Positions 58,736 to 64,000 of a DNA stretch of 64,000 nt are shown here, piece after piece (the stretch's first letter is position 1; every line of letters starts with the position of its first letter). Made by a program: the position numbers and the translations under genes. This DNA comes from Candidatus Eiseniibacteriota bacterium. GTDB taxonomy: Bacteria > Orphanbacterota > Orphanbacteria > Orphanbacterales > Orphanbacteraceae. The notes beneath the pieces were generated by a model. The model worked only from the letters and a program-made list of their open reading frames with translations, was not told the DNA's origin and searched no databases. The stretch spans positions 1,117,231 through 1,181,230 of the forward strand of contig JAJCZU010000004.1 of assembly GCA_029262235.1 (NCBI GenBank), read 5' to 3'.

Positions 58736-60499
58736 TTAGCGGTTTTGCGCGGTCCAGGCAGTGGCCCCCGGGTGCCCCGGCTGGATTCGCAGCACTTCCT
58801 CCATCGCGAGGAGGGCGCCGCGCCGGTCCCCGGCCTGGTCGAGCGTGAGCGCGACCCGGAAATGAGCCTCGGGGTCGGCGGGCGTGAGCGATACCACGCG
58901 GCGGAACGACTCCAGAGCCCCGGCGACGTCGCCGCCCCGCGCGTACGCAACCCCGAGGTTCGTGTGCAGCGACGGCATGCGCGGATTGATCGCGATCGCG
59001 TCCTTCAGCACCGCGATTCCCTCTTCGATCCGTCCCGCGTTCACGAGCGCCAGTCCGAGGTTGCTTCGCGCGTTCATGTTCGCGGGGTCCGCCTCGATGG
59101 CAGCCCGGTACTGCGCGAGCGCCTGATCGCCCCTGCCGATCGCGGCCAGCGAAGTGGCGAGATTGTTCTGCGCCTTCGGGTAGGGCGATTTTACGCGGAT
59201 CGCGGCTTCGTACAGTGCGATCGCTTCGCCGTGTTCGCCGCGCCTGGCAAGCATCTGCCCGAGATTGTTGAGCGCCATCCAGGCCGTGTCGTTCTCTTCG
59301 ATCGTGTCGCGCCAGAGCGTTTCCAGATTGCGATACGTATGCGCTTCGCCGTGCGCGACTCCGAGAAGCCCGGCAGCGGTGGTAGCGAGCAGCAGCGCGC
59401 CGCCGACCCGCGGAATCCTCGCACGCTGAATCGTGCGCGCTACCAGGACGGCGATCGCACAAACAAGGACCGGCACGGCGTGATACTGGAAATGATCCGC
59501 GACGAACGAGTAGCGGAACGGGTAGACGTCGATAAATCCGAGCGCCGGGAAAAGAACGCCCGCAAAAAGAAGCAGGGTTGCCAGCGGTCCGCGACCGATG
59601 CGGGCGCGAAGAAGCCATCCGGCCGCCGCGGCCCCCGCCAGCGCGAAGAGCGGAATCCACTGCAGGAAGTTCGCGGCGTCAGGCGTCCAGCGCGGATAGA
59701 AGAACGTGAGCGGGGAAGGCCAGACCACCTTGCCCGCATAAAAGATAACGTTGTGCGAAGCGAGCTGGGTTCTTTCGAGAAACGAGAGCGCCCACTCGCT
59801 TCCCTGAGCGCCGATGTAGTTCCGTTCGATCCAGACCGTCACGAGTCCCATGATCACGCCGATCGCAAGCAGCGGGGCAAGACGGGTCGTGTCCTTGCGC
59901 GGCAGCCGGCCCTCTCGCCACCAGATCATGACGGCAATGACCGCGGGGAGAGAAGCGACCACCGTTTTCGCGAGAAGCGCGCCGAGAAAGAGAGCGCCGG
60001 ACGCCGCCAGAAGTCCCGCGCCACCCTTTTCGCGATGCCGGAAGTACAGCAGCATCGACCCCAGCGCCAGCGCAAGGCTCAGCACGTTCTTACGCTCGGT
60101 GATCCAAGCGACCGACTCGACGCAGACCGGGTGCACGGCGAAAAGAAGCGCCGCGGCGAACGCCCCGGGCAGATCGAGACGTCGCAAGATCGTCGCGAGG
60201 AGCATCGCGCTGATCGCGTGCAGCAGAATGTTGACGATGTGATAGCCGCGCGGGTCGAATCCCCAGAGGCGCGATTCGATCCAGTAGGTGGTGTGCACGA
60301 GCGGATAATACTGCGTGGTCGCGCCGGGGCTGAACCAGATCGCGCGCAGCCCCCCCGGCTCGGTGAGCGTGCGGTTTTCCGTCACGTAGGAATCGTCGTC
60401 CCAGAGGAAATCGCCGTCCCACGCGGGAGCATAGACGACGGCCGAAGCCAGCAGCAGCAGCAGAAACCCGAGCAGGTTCGTTTTCGTTTGGGGGCTCAC
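58736..60499 (-). CDS. GT-C membrane protein with C-terminal TPR repeats (TMTC-like)
   Basis: About 587 residues from a GTG at 60499; a run of in-frame GTG codons just upstream (for example 60505) makes the exact start uncertain. Around ten membrane helices include the first loop 'GDFLWDDDSYVTENRTL', whose Asp residues are the GT-C catalytic signature, and 'HIVNILLHAISAMLLATIL'. From about residue 385 on, five TPR units ('HTNLGVAYARGGDVAGALES', for example) form a cytoplasmic or periplasmic tail. Animal TMTC O-mannosyltransferases share this plan. A sugar acceptor cannot be named. Confidence 0.85.
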   Translation of the reverse strand: MSPQTKTNLLGFLLLLLASAVVYAPAWDGDFLWDDDSYVTENRTLTEPGGLRAIWFSPGATTQYYPLVHTTYWIESRLWGFDPRGYHIVNILLHAISAMLLATILRRLDLPGAFAAALLFAVHPVCVESVAWITERKNVLSLALALGSMLLYFRHREKGGAGLLAASGALFLGALLAKTVVASLPAVIAVMIWWREGRLPRKDTTRLAPLLAIGVIMGLVTVWIERNYIGAQGSEWALSFLERTQLASHNVIFYAGKVVWPSPLTFFYPRWTPDAANFLQWIPLFALAGAAAAGWLLRARIGRGPLATLLLFAGVLFPALGFIDVYPFRYSFVADHFQYHAVPVLVCAIAVLVARTIQRARIPRVGGALLLATTAAGLLGVAHGEAHTYRNLETLWRDTIEENDTAWMALNNLGQMLARRGEHGEAIALYEAAIRVKSPYPKAQNNLATSLAAIGRGDQALAQYRAAIEADPANMNARSNLGLALVNAGRIEEGIAVLKDAIAINPRMPSLHTNLGVAYARGGDVAGALESFRRVVSLTPADPEAHFRVALTLDQAGDRRGALLAMEEVLRIQPGHPGATAWTAQNR

Positions 60500-60537
60500 G
60501 GGCACAGATGGTAGCACAGACGGCGCGGCGAATTCTC

Positions 60538-60566
60538 TTGACACCCTGTGCGGGGTTTCCCTAGTT
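60538..60566 (+). promoter_or_regulatory. promoter of the parA-CBM48 leader
   Basis: A perfect TTGACA at 60538-60543, 17 bases, then CTAGTT (60561-60566); TAGTTT one base on also fits. The -10 is weak, so activation may be needed. The predicted start is near 60573, about 190 bases before the parA ATG. Confidence 0.5.
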
Positions 60567-60572
60567 TTGCGC

Positions 60573-60725
60573 CGAAGGAGCACCCCGTGTAAAGGCATGC
60601 GCAGGCGTATGCACCGGAGCACCATGGCACAGCTTCCGACATATCCTCCCGATCGATCATCACGGAACGGCCGTCGCCGTATTTCAAATACCCCGCCCCT
60701 CCGCGCCAACGCTGAGGGCTTTTTT
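60573..60725 (+). ncRNA. terminated leader or small RNA upstream of parA-CBM48
   Basis: Between the promoter and the ParA gene, an RNA of about 153 bases would begin near 60573. It would form a hairpin gcatgcg-cagg-cgtatgc (60595-60612) and end at an intrinsic terminator (60695-60725). Transcription must pass that terminator to reach parA, so this is either an attenuator leader or a separate small RNA. A 48-codon frame (ATG 60597 to TAG 60741) crosses the terminator and could be a leader peptide; it has several Arg codons and a purine-rich gaaggag upstream. Neither is proven. Confidence 0.4.
60695..60725 (+). terminator. intrinsic terminator ahead of parA-CBM48
   Basis: The arms gcccctccgcg and cgctgagggc pair around a ccaa loop (with one mismatch and one bulge), followed by six T residues at 60720-60725. 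The site is 37 bases upstream of the ParA start codon and on the same strand. Confidence 0.7.
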
Positions 60726-60762: not shown

Positions 60763-61860
60763 ATGAAGATCATCGCCATCGCAAATCAAAAAGGGGGATG
60801 TGGAAAGTCCACCACCGCAGTCAATCTGGCTGCTTCATTGTCCGAGCTCGAAGGACGAGTGCTGCTCGTCGACCTCGACCCGCAGGGCCATGCGTCGCTC
60901 GGCCTCGGGATCGATACGGAACTTCTCGCGCTCACTGTGCGCGACGCGATCATGCAGCCGGCCAAACCCCTGTCCGCCATCAAGCTGCCGGCGCTCGAAG
61001 GCGTCGACGTCATCCCCGCCAACGTACTGCTTTCGACCGTCGAACAGGAACTCGCCGGCGAGGAAGGTAGAGAGACGCGGCTTCATGAAGCCCTGGCGGA
61101 AGTCCGCGACCAGTACGACTGGATTCTGTTCGACTGTCCGCCGAGCGTCGGGTTCCTGACGATCAATGCTTTCGTTGCCGCCGATGCGGTACTCGTGCCG
61201 ATCGACTCTTCCTCTTTTTCGATGCATGGTCTCGAGCGCCTGCTCGACACCGTGGACCTGGTTGAGTCGAACGCGAACAAGAAGCTTCCCGTGCACGCGC
61301 TGGCCACGATGCACAATCCGCGCACGAAATACGGCCGTCAGTTCTTTGACGAACTGCGTGGCCGGTTCGGCGACCATCTCCTCGAAACGGTGATCCATCA
61401 GTCGGTCGTAGCGAAGGTCGCGGCATCCCGCGGGCTTCCGATCGGCCGGGTGGCGCGCCACTCCCGATTGCACCAGGACTATCTGGCGCTCGCGACGGAA
61501 GTGGTCGAGGCGTCTGCCGCCGACGATCTGCCGGCCACCTTCGAGGCACCCGTTGCGATGCCTTCCGGCGGGCCGCTCGTGGTCGGGGACACGATCGAAT
61601 TCGAACTGGAGGCGCCGGCCACGTCGTCAGTGGCGATTGTCGGCGAGTTCAACGACTGGAACGCGGACGTAGGGAAGATGAGCTACGACCGGCGCTCCGG
61701 CATCTGGCATCTGACGGTTGCGGTCGTGCCCGGCCGGTATCGCTATCGGTTCATCGTCGATGGCCAGTGGGTGGAAGATCCTTCGGCGCCCTGCGAAGAG
61801 TCTGCGGCCGGCTATCGGAATTCGGTCGTCGACGTGGCCGGTGCGCGCGTCGTCGAGTGA
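60763..61860 (+). CDS. ParA/MinD-type ATPase fused to a CBM48/AMPK-type glycogen-binding domain
   Basis: 365 residues; gggagga precedes the ATG. Residues 1-250 are a complete ParA: deviant Walker A K10-GGCGK15-S16-T17, switch I DLDPQGHASLGLG (37-49), Walker B ILFDCPP (121-127) and the 'KVAASRGLPIGRVARHSRLHQDY' end. After a linker, residues about 275-360 form an E-set carbohydrate-binding module like AMPK-beta/CBM48: 'SSVAIVGEFNDWNADVGKM', 'SGIWHLTVAVVPGRYRYRF', 'VDGQWVEDP' and the closing 'AAGYRNSVVDV', with W299, W315 and W336 in the expected sugar-binding places. It is not a chromosomal parA: no parB is present, and the next gene starts within its stop codon (GTGA). A role in positioning glycogen or a glycan-making machine is inference. 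Confidence 0.95.
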   Translation: MKIIAIANQKGGCGKSTTAVNLAASLSELEGRVLLVDLDPQGHASLGLGIDTELLALTVRDAIMQPAKPLSAIKLPALEGVDVIPANVLLSTVEQELAGEEGRETRLHEALAEVRDQYDWILFDCPPSVGFLTINAFVAADAVLVPIDSSSFSMHGLERLLDTVDLVESNANKKLPVHALATMHNPRTKYGRQFFDELRGRFGDHLLETVIHQSVVAKVAASRGLPIGRVARHSRLHQDYLALATEVVEASAADDLPATFEAPVAMPSGGPLVVGDTIEFELEAPATSSVAIVGEFNDWNADVGKMSYDRRSGIWHLTVAVVPGRYRYRFIVDGQWVEDPSAPCEESAAGYRNSVVDVAGARVVE

Positions 61861-62507
61861 GCGGATCACGTACCGTTCGTGAGACGCACAGGGAGCACCT
61901 CGCGTCCGTTTATTTCTCCGGCGCCTCCCGTGCGCCGGCGCGGTGCCCCGCGCTCGTCCTTCTGCGCGACGAAGCAGAAACCGCCCGCCTTGCGAACCGC
62001 ATTCGGTCGCGCTCTCTCGAGGCGGGCGGCCTGTTTCTTCGGGCGACCCCGGCGCGCGACGACGGATTCACACTGGATGACGGAACCGTATGGACCGGGG
62101 GACTCGCGCCCGCCATTGAACGGGTGCTCGGTCACGCGTCATGCTCGATGGTGCTGGCCGAAACGCGCAGGCCCCGCATGACCGGGGATGCCACGGTCTG
62201 GTCGTTCGACGCGGATCCCGCGTCGGTCGAAGCCGTGTATCGCGATTTGAAGCAGCTTTCGCTGAAGGGCGAACTGCGTCTTCCGACCTTGCTCGCATCT
62301 TCACGGGACAAACAATGGCTGCGGAAACTGGCCCGCGATCTCGAAGGCGCTGTCCGCCGTTTTCTCGGCTACAAGGTGACCGTGTGGACGGACGAAGACG
62401 CACTGGCCGCGAGAATCGTTTCGCTGGCCGGACGCGTTGCCGAGCGGAAGAATTCCGACGATCGCAGAACGCGCATTGCGGCCCTGCTGGATGCGTGCCA
62501 TGCCTGA
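61857..62507 (+). CDS. hypothetical protein coupled to ParA-CBM48
   Basis: 216 residues from a GTG overlapping the parA stop. The chain begins with basic and hydroxyl residues, then 'APARCPALVLLRDEAETARLANRIRSRS', and later a helical block 'VEAVYRDLKQLSLKGELRLPTLLASSRDKQWLRKLARDLEGAVRRFLG'. There is no signal, no membrane helix and no Walker motif. I do not recognise a family. The overlap suggests strong co-expression with the ATPase, so it may be its partner or activator. The stop overlaps the next start by eight bases. Confidence 0.65.
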   Translation: MSGSRTVRETHREHLASVYFSGASRAPARCPALVLLRDEAETARLANRIRSRSLEAGGLFLRATPARDDGFTLDDGTVWTGGLAPAIERVLGHASCSMVLAETRRPRMTGDATVWSFDADPASVEAVYRDLKQLSLKGELRLPTLLASSRDKQWLRKLARDLEGAVRRFLGYKVTVWTDEDALAARIVSLAGRVAERKNSDDRRTRIAALLDACHA

Positions 62508-63012
62508 ACCGACGCCGGCCATTCCCCTCGAAGTTCTCCTTTCGGACCGGATCGTTCCGGGACGGGCGCTGCGTCCGCTCCATCCGGCGCCCTCAGATCG
62601 CGTTCATGCCTGCGGGGACGAGCGGGATCGCATTCATCTCATTGCCGAAGTGACCGGAAACAGGGCCCGGCTTTTTTGTGAACTCGGTCGTGTGATTTCC
62701 CTGCTTCGCGGGACGCTCGATCCGTCGACGCTTTTTCGCGGAGAGCACGGTCTGCGCGGAAGTCTCGAACCCGCGCTCCACCTCGTGACCCGGCGCGCGT
62801 TCCCGCGGGATCCGTTCCTCGGACTCGGCGCCGGTGCGATCCACGTGGTGCTCCTTGGCGGTGATGCGTCGAATCTGCGGGTCCGCAAGCGGGAACAGTG
62901 GTTTGATGCAGGGAATCGCACGCCGGAACCGCCGGCGGAATCGGACGGACTCTCACCGGAAGAACAGCTCTTTTTCGACCAGCTCGCGCGGGATTATCGC
63001 GCCGTCGTTTGA
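62500..63012 (+). CDS. hypothetical protein, third gene of the ParA-CBM48 unit
   Basis: 170 residues from ATG 62500, which overlaps the previous gene by eight bases. The sequence begins MPEPTPAIPLEVLLSDRIVP, has a helical middle ('ARLFCELGRVISLLRGTLDPSTLF') and ends with an acidic stretch and 'FFDQLARDYRAVV'. There are no membrane segments or recognised motifs. It sits between the ATPase unit and the aminotransferase gene, 47 bases upstream of the latter. Confidence 0.6.
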   Translation: MPEPTPAIPLEVLLSDRIVPGRALRPLHPAPSDRVHACGDERDRIHLIAEVTGNRARLFCELGRVISLLRGTLDPSTLFRGEHGLRGSLEPALHLVTRRAFPRDPFLGLGAGAIHVVLLGGDASNLRVRKREQWFDAGNRTPEPPAESDGLSPEEQLFFDQLARDYRAVV

Positions 63013-63059: not shown

Positions 63060-64000
63060 ATGTCGAGTGAGATCAAGCAGTCCGTTGCCTATCGCGCGCC
63101 CCGCCTTCCCGATGCGGCCGCGCTCCGCGTTTCGTTCGACTCCCTGCTCGACTCCGGTATCTGGAACCGCGGCCCGCTTGTTTCCCGGTTCGAGCGCGCA
63201 TTCGCGGCGCGCGCGGGGGCCGGGGATGCCGTTCTCTGTTCGTCGGCGACCGCGGCGCTCACGCTTCTTCTACGCGCCGATGCGCCCGATGGAGCGATCG
63301 TGATGCCGGCTTTTCAATTTCCCCCCGTACTGGCCGCCCTTCGCGATTCCGGCCACGCCACGGTTTTTGCCGATGTCGACTCCCGTTTCTGGACGGCGCG
63401 CGCGCAGTCTCTCGCGGGCGCCCCCGAGTCGGGGGGAGCAGGCATGGAGTCCGTAAGCGGGTTCCTGGGTGCGCCCTCGTTCGGGGAAACCGCGTGCTGC
63501 GCCGACGGCGAGAAGTGGAGCGCCGCGCATCGCAAGCCGGTCTGGTTCGATTCCTGTCACGCGTTCGGCAGCAGCGTTGCCGGCCGTGCGTCTGGTTCGT
63601 TCGGGCGCGCGGAGGTCTTCAGTCTTACGCCTTCGAAACTGGTGATCGGGGGCGAAGGAGGAGTCGTTACGACGAGCGATCCGGAGCTCGCGGAACAATT
63701 GCGCGCCCTGCGGGACTACGGGAAGCGTGCCGACGGTACGTTCGATTCGCGCGGCACGAGCGCGCGCGCGAGCGAATGGACGGCCGGTATTGCGCTGGCC
63801 TCGCTGGAACTGTTGACGGACGAAATGGCGAGACGAAACCGCCTGCTTTCCGTTTATCGCGAAGAGCTCGCAGAAACTCGCGGAATCGAGTTCCAGGCGG
63901 CGGACGATGCGCTCGTTCCGAACGCGCAGGAGTGCGTGATCCGTGTCGACGCCGGGAACTTCGGCATGAGTCGCGCCCGGCTGCGAGCCGCGCTGCAGGC
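63060..64000 (+). CDS. DegT/DnrJ/EryC1/StrS aminotransferase, 3' end cut by the window
   Basis: The frame from ATG 63060 is open to the window edge (313 codons seen of an expected 360-400). The PLP-lysine motif is SLTPSKLVIGGEGG, with 'VWFDSCHAFGSSVAG' (Asp and His) before it and 'ALRDYGKR' after it, as in sugar aminotransferases. 'IVMPAFQFPPVLAALRDSGH' replaces the usual 'P.ytf.at..ai' segment. The enzyme transfers an amino group from glutamate to a keto sugar-nucleotide, typically for polysaccharide or antibiotic-sugar synthesis. It lies directly after the ParA-CBM48 unit. No frameshift is seen. Confidence 0.9.
   Translation, partial: MSSEIKQSVAYRAPRLPDAAALRVSFDSLLDSGIWNRGPLVSRFERAFAARAGAGDAVLCSSATAALTLLLRADAPDGAIVMPAFQFPPVLAALRDSGHATVFADVDSRFWTARAQSLAGAPESGGAGMESVSGFLGAPSFGETACCADGEKWSAAHRKPVWFDSCHAFGSSVAGRASGSFGRAEVFSLTPSKLVIGGEGGVVTTSDPELAEQLRALRDYGKRADGTFDSRGTSARASEWTAGIALASLELLTDEMARRNRLLSVYREELAETRGIEFQAADDALVPNAQECVIRVDAGNFGMSRARLRAALQ

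Follow-up and report, generated by a model that had tools for sequence, protein, structure and literature searches.

What would a ParA-type ATPase do with a domain of the kind that binds glycogen? The question is raised by an open reading frame near the end of a 64,000-nucleotide stretch of bacterial DNA, the whole of which we call the window. The cargo of known ParA/MinD ATPases consists of DNA, carboxysomes, chemoreceptors, flagella and division sites. If the glycan binding that the domain suggests is real, a storage polymer would join that list.

In the literature that we searched, which took in few subscription papers and preprints, we found no description of a ParA-CBM48 protein or of ParA acting on glycogen. 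A survey and test of the multiple ParA/MinD ATPases of one bacterium does not contain the word glycogen (PMC10241942). In Escherichia coli csrA mutants, glycogen gathers at the old poles, and such cells cease dividing (PMC4836754). The active sharing-out of glycogen is therefore a real and testable question, and the lack of an active partition can matter to cells.

A ParA-type ATPase joined to a glycogen-binding-type domain

The open reading frame begins with an ATG preceded by a GGAGG sequence (Table 1). The preliminary description of this DNA had read its product as a ParA/MinD ATPase with intact Walker motifs, ending in an E-set CBM48/AMPK-β module, and both parts of that reading were borne out. 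Residues 1-175 matched the Pfam family AAA_31 with an E value of 4.7e-55, and the features of the deviant Walker A class of ParA/MinD ATPases are present, i.e., the sequence KGGxGK[ST] with its signature lysine, D-x-D in motif 2, and the ParA fold. The tail agrees with the CBM48/AMPK1_CBM family in both sequence and fold: residues 288-359 scored 48.9 bits with AMPK1_CBM (PF16561; E = 7.9e-13), for which the cut-off is 26.8, and CBM_48 was matched by residues 277-335 (E = 1.1e-8). In a sequence search of the PDB, residues 289-358 matched the glycogen-binding domains of AMPK β1 and β2 (E about 1e-6 to 2e-8); pullulanase was also matched by the tail. An AlphaFold2 model, built with 54 sequences, consists of a ParA fold, a disordered linker (residues 256-268) and a β-sandwich (residues 272-358), and its top Foldseek matches were Soj and the ParA structure 8ray. 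We regard it as confirmed that this gene encodes a ParA-type ATPase joined to a C-terminal glycogen-binding-type domain.

Table 1. Features of the fusion locus (window positions unless a locus is named)
Feature	Position	Strand	Basis or remark
ParA-CBM48 fusion ATPase, 365 aa	60763..61860	+	Pfam/NCBIfam matches; AlphaFold2, mean pLDDT 90.7; 69 same-architecture homologues
ParA domain, residues 1-250	60763..61512	+	AAA_31; Soj and ParA 8ray fold matches
Deviant Walker A KGGCGKST, residues 10-17	60790-60813	+	Within ParA domain
C-terminal AMPK1_CBM/CBM48 β-sandwich, residues 273-359	61579..61839	+	PF16561; AMPK β alignment
Orf2, 216 aa, candidate ATPase-activating partner	61857..62507	+	GTGA overlap; homologues; AlphaFold2/Foldseek
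Orf2 N-terminal motif, window form RTVRETHREHLASVYFS	61869..61919	+	Candidate ParB/PomX-like activator peptide
Orf3, 170 aa, C-terminal motif L-x-x-x-E-x-x-(F/Y)-F	62500..63012	+	Comes after Orf2 both in the window's family and among Gammaproteobacteria
DegT/DnrJ/EryC1 sugar aminotransferase	63060-64000		Directly after Orf3; local context
CAIN(S/T)RWE membrane protein loci	L041:3688-3921, L040:2082-2315, L043:7306-7581		

Distribution of the fusion and its separation from chromosomal ParA

By the preliminary description, the fusion claim would fall if the domain order were confined to rare singletons resembling assembly joins. The domain order recurs well beyond singletons, in several phyla, and an assembly chimera is excluded because the fusion sits within long contigs of many genomes. 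The full 365-residue query was matched in all seven genomes of the window's family (the window's own and six relatives), with 52-94% identity. For the wider search, a profile built from 14 fusions was used. Full-length fusions were found in 3/3 genomes of a second phylum (that of genome G030) and in 57 of the 80 genomes of a third (that of G031), along with four truncated or split copies. The fusion is also present in named metagenome-assembled Gammaproteobacteria; among 369 gammaproteobacterial genomes sampled, 14 had the full fusion, and two had a relative without the CBM.

In a tree of the ParA domains (a quick tree, made without bootstraps), the fusions fell apart from canonical ParAs, and with Soj as the root they formed a single clade (SH-aLRT 91), in which the relatives without the CBM sat among the gammaproteobacterial fusions. 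These two ATPases (loci L230 and L231, genomes G429 and G322), one of which keeps the upstream MerR gene, are natural tests of what the CBM contributes.

No ParB gene, the neighbour that marks chromosomal ParABS systems, adjoins the fusion. The window's genome has its own Soj, at C4:27171, followed by a ParB with a GRGLEALL motif. A ParA for plasmid or chromosome partition is excluded by the lack of an adjoining ParB, the separate clade and the presence of this other Soj-ParB pair. BcsQ is excluded by score (77.8 bits with TIGR03371, against a cut-off of 157.85).

Conservation of residues in the ATPase and the CBM

Conservation was assessed in 69 distinct fusions of the same architecture. In the ATPase, K10, K15, D37 and D39 were invariant, as was H43, which occupies the position of the motif-2 asparagine N64 of Myxococcus ParA. 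Invariant residues of the CBM were W299, Y328, W336, G350 and N353, and position 329 was arginine or lysine in 68/69. By the alignment from the PDB search, W299, W336, R/K329 and N353 correspond to W100, W133, K126 and N150 of AMPK β, whose roles we take to be those generally ascribed to them. Three conserved aromatic residues had been proposed at the outset; W299 and W336 stand, whereas W315, kept in 52/69 fusions, falls away and is not among the recognised contact residues. As a caveat to the link with glycogen, the conserved CBM residues are typical of PF16561 generally, and further PF16561 domains of the window's genome keep them as well.

An E-set domain that has lost carbohydrate binding, and now serves in dimerisation or in binding a partner, seems to us very improbable. 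Although E-set domains often act as interaction modules, and the two CBM-less gammaproteobacterial relatives keep the ATPase, W299, W336 and N353 do not vary in 69 proteins, and the 53 homologues compared span 33-94% identity to the window protein.

In Myxococcus ParA, R238 is a DNA-binding residue (PMC12462528). The fusion position aligned with it, residue 216, was R or K in 62/69, and to judge from this alignment most members of the fusion family are likely to bind DNA there. The remaining seven have V or I. By alignment, these seven belong to the window's own family, and DNA binding at this position by the window protein is for this reason uncertain; the loss of R/K at residue 216 (P0001) was seen only in that family.

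Orf2, a candidate activating partner

The preliminary description had noted, after the fusion, two genes of unknown family that overlap tightly, and both are present. Of these, Orf2 has no Pfam or NCBIfam match. It begins with a GTG, which overlaps the fusion's stop codon in the sequence GTGA. Its most conserved part is a basic and hydrophobic stretch at the N terminus, with the family consensus [RK]xxLxxISHHFLS; the window, like its genus, has a divergent form. The strict motif occurred in 44 of 68 genes downstream of a fusion and in 4 of 1741 random anchors, and a looser one in 52/68 and 16/1741, respectively, a large contrast, with p values that are too good since the pattern was defined on the same sequences. 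The divergence of the motif and the loss of R/K at residue 216 may have come about together in the window's lineage.

Relatives of Orf2 lie directly 3' of the fusion in other phyla as well. Such a relative also comes next in the third phylum, where one group matched the window-type Orf2 in profile comparisons (E = 2.8e-5); two groups of relatives matched each other with E = 1.3e-6. In the second phylum, the motif heads an unrelated Cys-rich protein. At one of two fusion copies in genome G140 (L170:7000-8940), an Orf2-type motif protein of 646 aa continues in frame into an NrfD/HmcC-like membrane domain; this may be a partner of another kind, or the product of a gene fusion.

In the AlphaFold2 model of Orf2 (pLDDT 70), the disordered, basic N terminus is drawn as a helix of low confidence, set apart from an α/β domain. 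The best PDB matches of the latter in Foldseek were FlhG and FleN (E about 1e-4), and it is a degenerate MinD/FlhG-like domain from which the P-loop has gone. The spacing of the motif, L-x-x-I-x-x-x-F-L-S, resembles that of ParB, L-x-R-x-L-x-x-L-L-S (LGRGLEALLS in the ParB of the window's genome). Because the motif is like the peptides with which ParB and PomX bind ParA, we propose Orf2 as an ATPase-activating partner, i.e., one that probably acts as activator and adaptor of the fusion ATPase.

The likeness of Orf2 to FlhG and FleN would also fit a sensor or switch, an alternative already offered in the preliminary description, in which glycogen or maltodextrin on the CBM would alter the ATP cycle, and the pseudo-ATPase Orf2 would pass the signal to a target, much as FlhG/FleN control transcription or AMPK β reads glycogen. 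A MerR-type regulator gene often precedes the fusion in Gammaproteobacteria, and HDOD, GGDEF and EAL genes lie near some fusion loci. We nevertheless consider this reading unlikely, because most members retain all the catalytic residues and the DNA-binding position of positioning ParAs, the Orf2 motif looks like an activator peptide, and a common regulatory target was not seen across the phyla.

Orf3 and neighbouring genes

Orf3 overlaps Orf2 by 8 bp and has no significant Pfam match and no NCBIfam match; weak matches to NucS/PD-(D/E)XK nucleases (E = 0.06-0.2) do not amount to an assignment, and we claim none. The usual gene order in Gammaproteobacteria is MerR regulator, fusion, Orf2, Orf3. 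The preliminary description had raised the recurrence of the same two downstream genes in other genomes, and because this equivalent pair trails the fusion in Gammaproteobacteria, Orf2 and Orf3 belong to the fusion system.

The sugar aminotransferase described earlier is indeed there, as a DegT/DnrJ/EryC1 protein, and is local context only. In relatives of the window's family, a small membrane protein (77-91 aa) with a CAIN(S/T)RWE motif comes after Orf3; in the window there is no such gene between Orf3 and the aminotransferase. A PMT-TPR membrane protein comes after the aminotransferase in relatives, and in the window another, divergently oriented, lies upstream of the fusion (58736-60709). 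In the phylum of G031, a DUF212 (divergent PAP2) gene is located directly upstream on the same strand at L163:7462-7878, L179:8064-8492 and 19 other loci. Elsewhere in the window's genome, four AMPK1_CBM domains lie in tandem within an open frame of 1201 aa (G000:C4:519117-520619), and there are two further AMPK1_CBM open frames near 601-604 kb.

Many operons of the third phylum extend into genes for an O-antigen ligase/Wzy-type protein, a GT4 glycosyltransferase and a WecA/MraY-type transferase. Taken with the window's aminotransferase and flanking PMT-TPR proteins, they would suit a surface-glycan machine that is positioned or gated in the manner of BcsQ, in which case the CBM would bind either an intermediate of the glycan or just a protein. 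Such neighbours vary by lineage, however, and none was seen at the gammaproteobacterial loci; BcsQ models score far under their cut-offs, AMPK1_CBM domains bind α-glucan, and an explicit α-glucan cluster is present in one lineage. We judge this alternative distinctly unlikely.

Association with glycogen genes

In the gammaproteobacterial sample, the glycogen synthase gene GlgA was found in 200/369 genomes overall, i.e., in 14/14 with the fusion and 186/355 of the others (p = 1.5e-4, uncorrected for phylogeny). Both genomes with CBM-less relatives also have it. GlgA was likewise present in 15/15 fusion genomes drawn from the window's family, the phylum of G030 and named gammaproteobacterial records, one genome (G065) being counted both here and in the sample of 369. 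The GlgA gene of the window's genome is on a different contig from the fusion. The third phylum shows no association (GlgA in 34/38 genomes with the fusion and 7/8 without), GlgA being nearly ubiquitous there, and classical GlgB, which exceeded the cut-off in 7/78, is uninformative as a marker.

We saw direct linkage of the fusion to glycogen genes only in a single family, within one phylum. In genome G145, the genes downstream of the fusion, all on one strand, encode a lone CBM48 protein, two GlgA-like GT4/GT5-type glycosyltransferases, a GH57 branching enzyme, an α-glucan phosphorylase, a second GH57 protein, MalQ (GH77 4-α-glucanotransferase) and a GlgX-like CBM48-amylase protein. Because none of the searched genomes of this family has a classical GlgA match, the cluster is probably the family's glycogen pathway. 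At its second copy in G140, the fusion precedes a lone CBM48 gene and a fragment of a glycosyltransferase. Weak support for a glycogen link comes from sucrose synthase and sucrose-phosphate genes at one gammaproteobacterial locus, a related gene at a second, and invertase at two others. The co-occurrence with GlgA and the glycogen cluster downstream in one lineage support the view that the genomic context of the fusion points to α-glucan.

A proposed role in glycogen positioning

The preliminary description had suggested a system that positions glycogen granules or a glycan machine, and this interpretation is supported by the conserved fusion, the residues kept for both activities and the genomic context. 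We give an even chance to the reading that the fusion and its partners form a ParA-type system for positioning or partitioning intracellular α-glucan, i.e., glycogen. We infer that the ATPase binds glycan and DNA, that Orf2 activates it, and that the system positions its cargo. The ATP-bound ParA dimer would use the usual ParA surface to sit on the nucleoid and its C-terminal CBM48 domains to grip glycogen, so that granules, or the machinery that makes glycogen, would be tethered there. The basic and hydrophobic N-terminal peptide of Orf2 would dock at the ParA dimer interface, like those of ParB and PomX, and trigger ATP hydrolysis and release, with Orf3 as a putative accessory subunit. Repeated binding and release would spread the granules over the nucleoid and divide them between the daughters.

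Several points count against this proposal. Several fusion loci adjoin surface-polysaccharide genes; the window's family lacks the DNA-binding arginine at position 216, and the window's motif is divergent; and in known ParA-type systems the cargo is usually marked by the partner, not the ATPase. More tentatively, this could be the first partition system for a storage polysaccharide, in which a glycogen-binding ParA and a pseudo-ParA partner with a ParB-like peptide secure equal inheritance in several phyla. Conserved across several phyla together with a partner gene, the fusion suggests an active placing or sharing-out of glycogen in some bacteria, and the family names genes with which active sharing of glycogen in bacteria can be tested.

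Comparison with known systems

With the chromosomal ParA/Soj proteins (8RAY of Myxococcus, and Soj of Thermus and Helicobacter), the fusion has the fold and catalytic residues in common, at about 40% identity, and most fusions also have R/K at the DNA-binding position. It differs in its C-terminal CBM48, in the invariant H43 in place of the motif-2 asparagine, and in having no adjoining ParB and its own clade in a genome with a separate Soj-ParB. BcsQ is, like the fusion, a ParA/MinD ATPase tied to a polysaccharide process; however, it lacks a CBM, the fusion scores about half the BcsQ family cut-off, and no cellulose genes were seen with the fusion. FlhG/FleN, the MinD-like flagellar regulator, is the nearest fold match of Orf2, but Orf2 has no P-loop and only about 10-14% identity, in a model of moderate confidence. 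The AMPK β glycogen-binding domain, also of CBM48, has its W100, W133, N150 and K126 (as R/K) equivalents kept in the fusion, whereas the positions of L146 and T148 vary, and the fusion's CBM is joined to a ParA ATPase rather than to a kinase scaffold.

The logic of the fusion system is likely to be that of McdA/McdB in carboxysome positioning, PpfA/TlpT in chemoreceptor clusters and PomZ/PomX, i.e., a nucleoid-bound ATPase, a partner whose N terminus carries a short, basic activator stretch, and a cargo other than DNA. In contrast to these, the fusion carries a candidate cargo-binding domain on the ATPase itself, Orf2 has a pseudo-MinD domain, and the cargo would be a polysaccharide. The fusion family would be a minimal case, with the cargo-binding domain on the ATPase and, as its partner, a pseudo-ATPase bearing the activator peptide.
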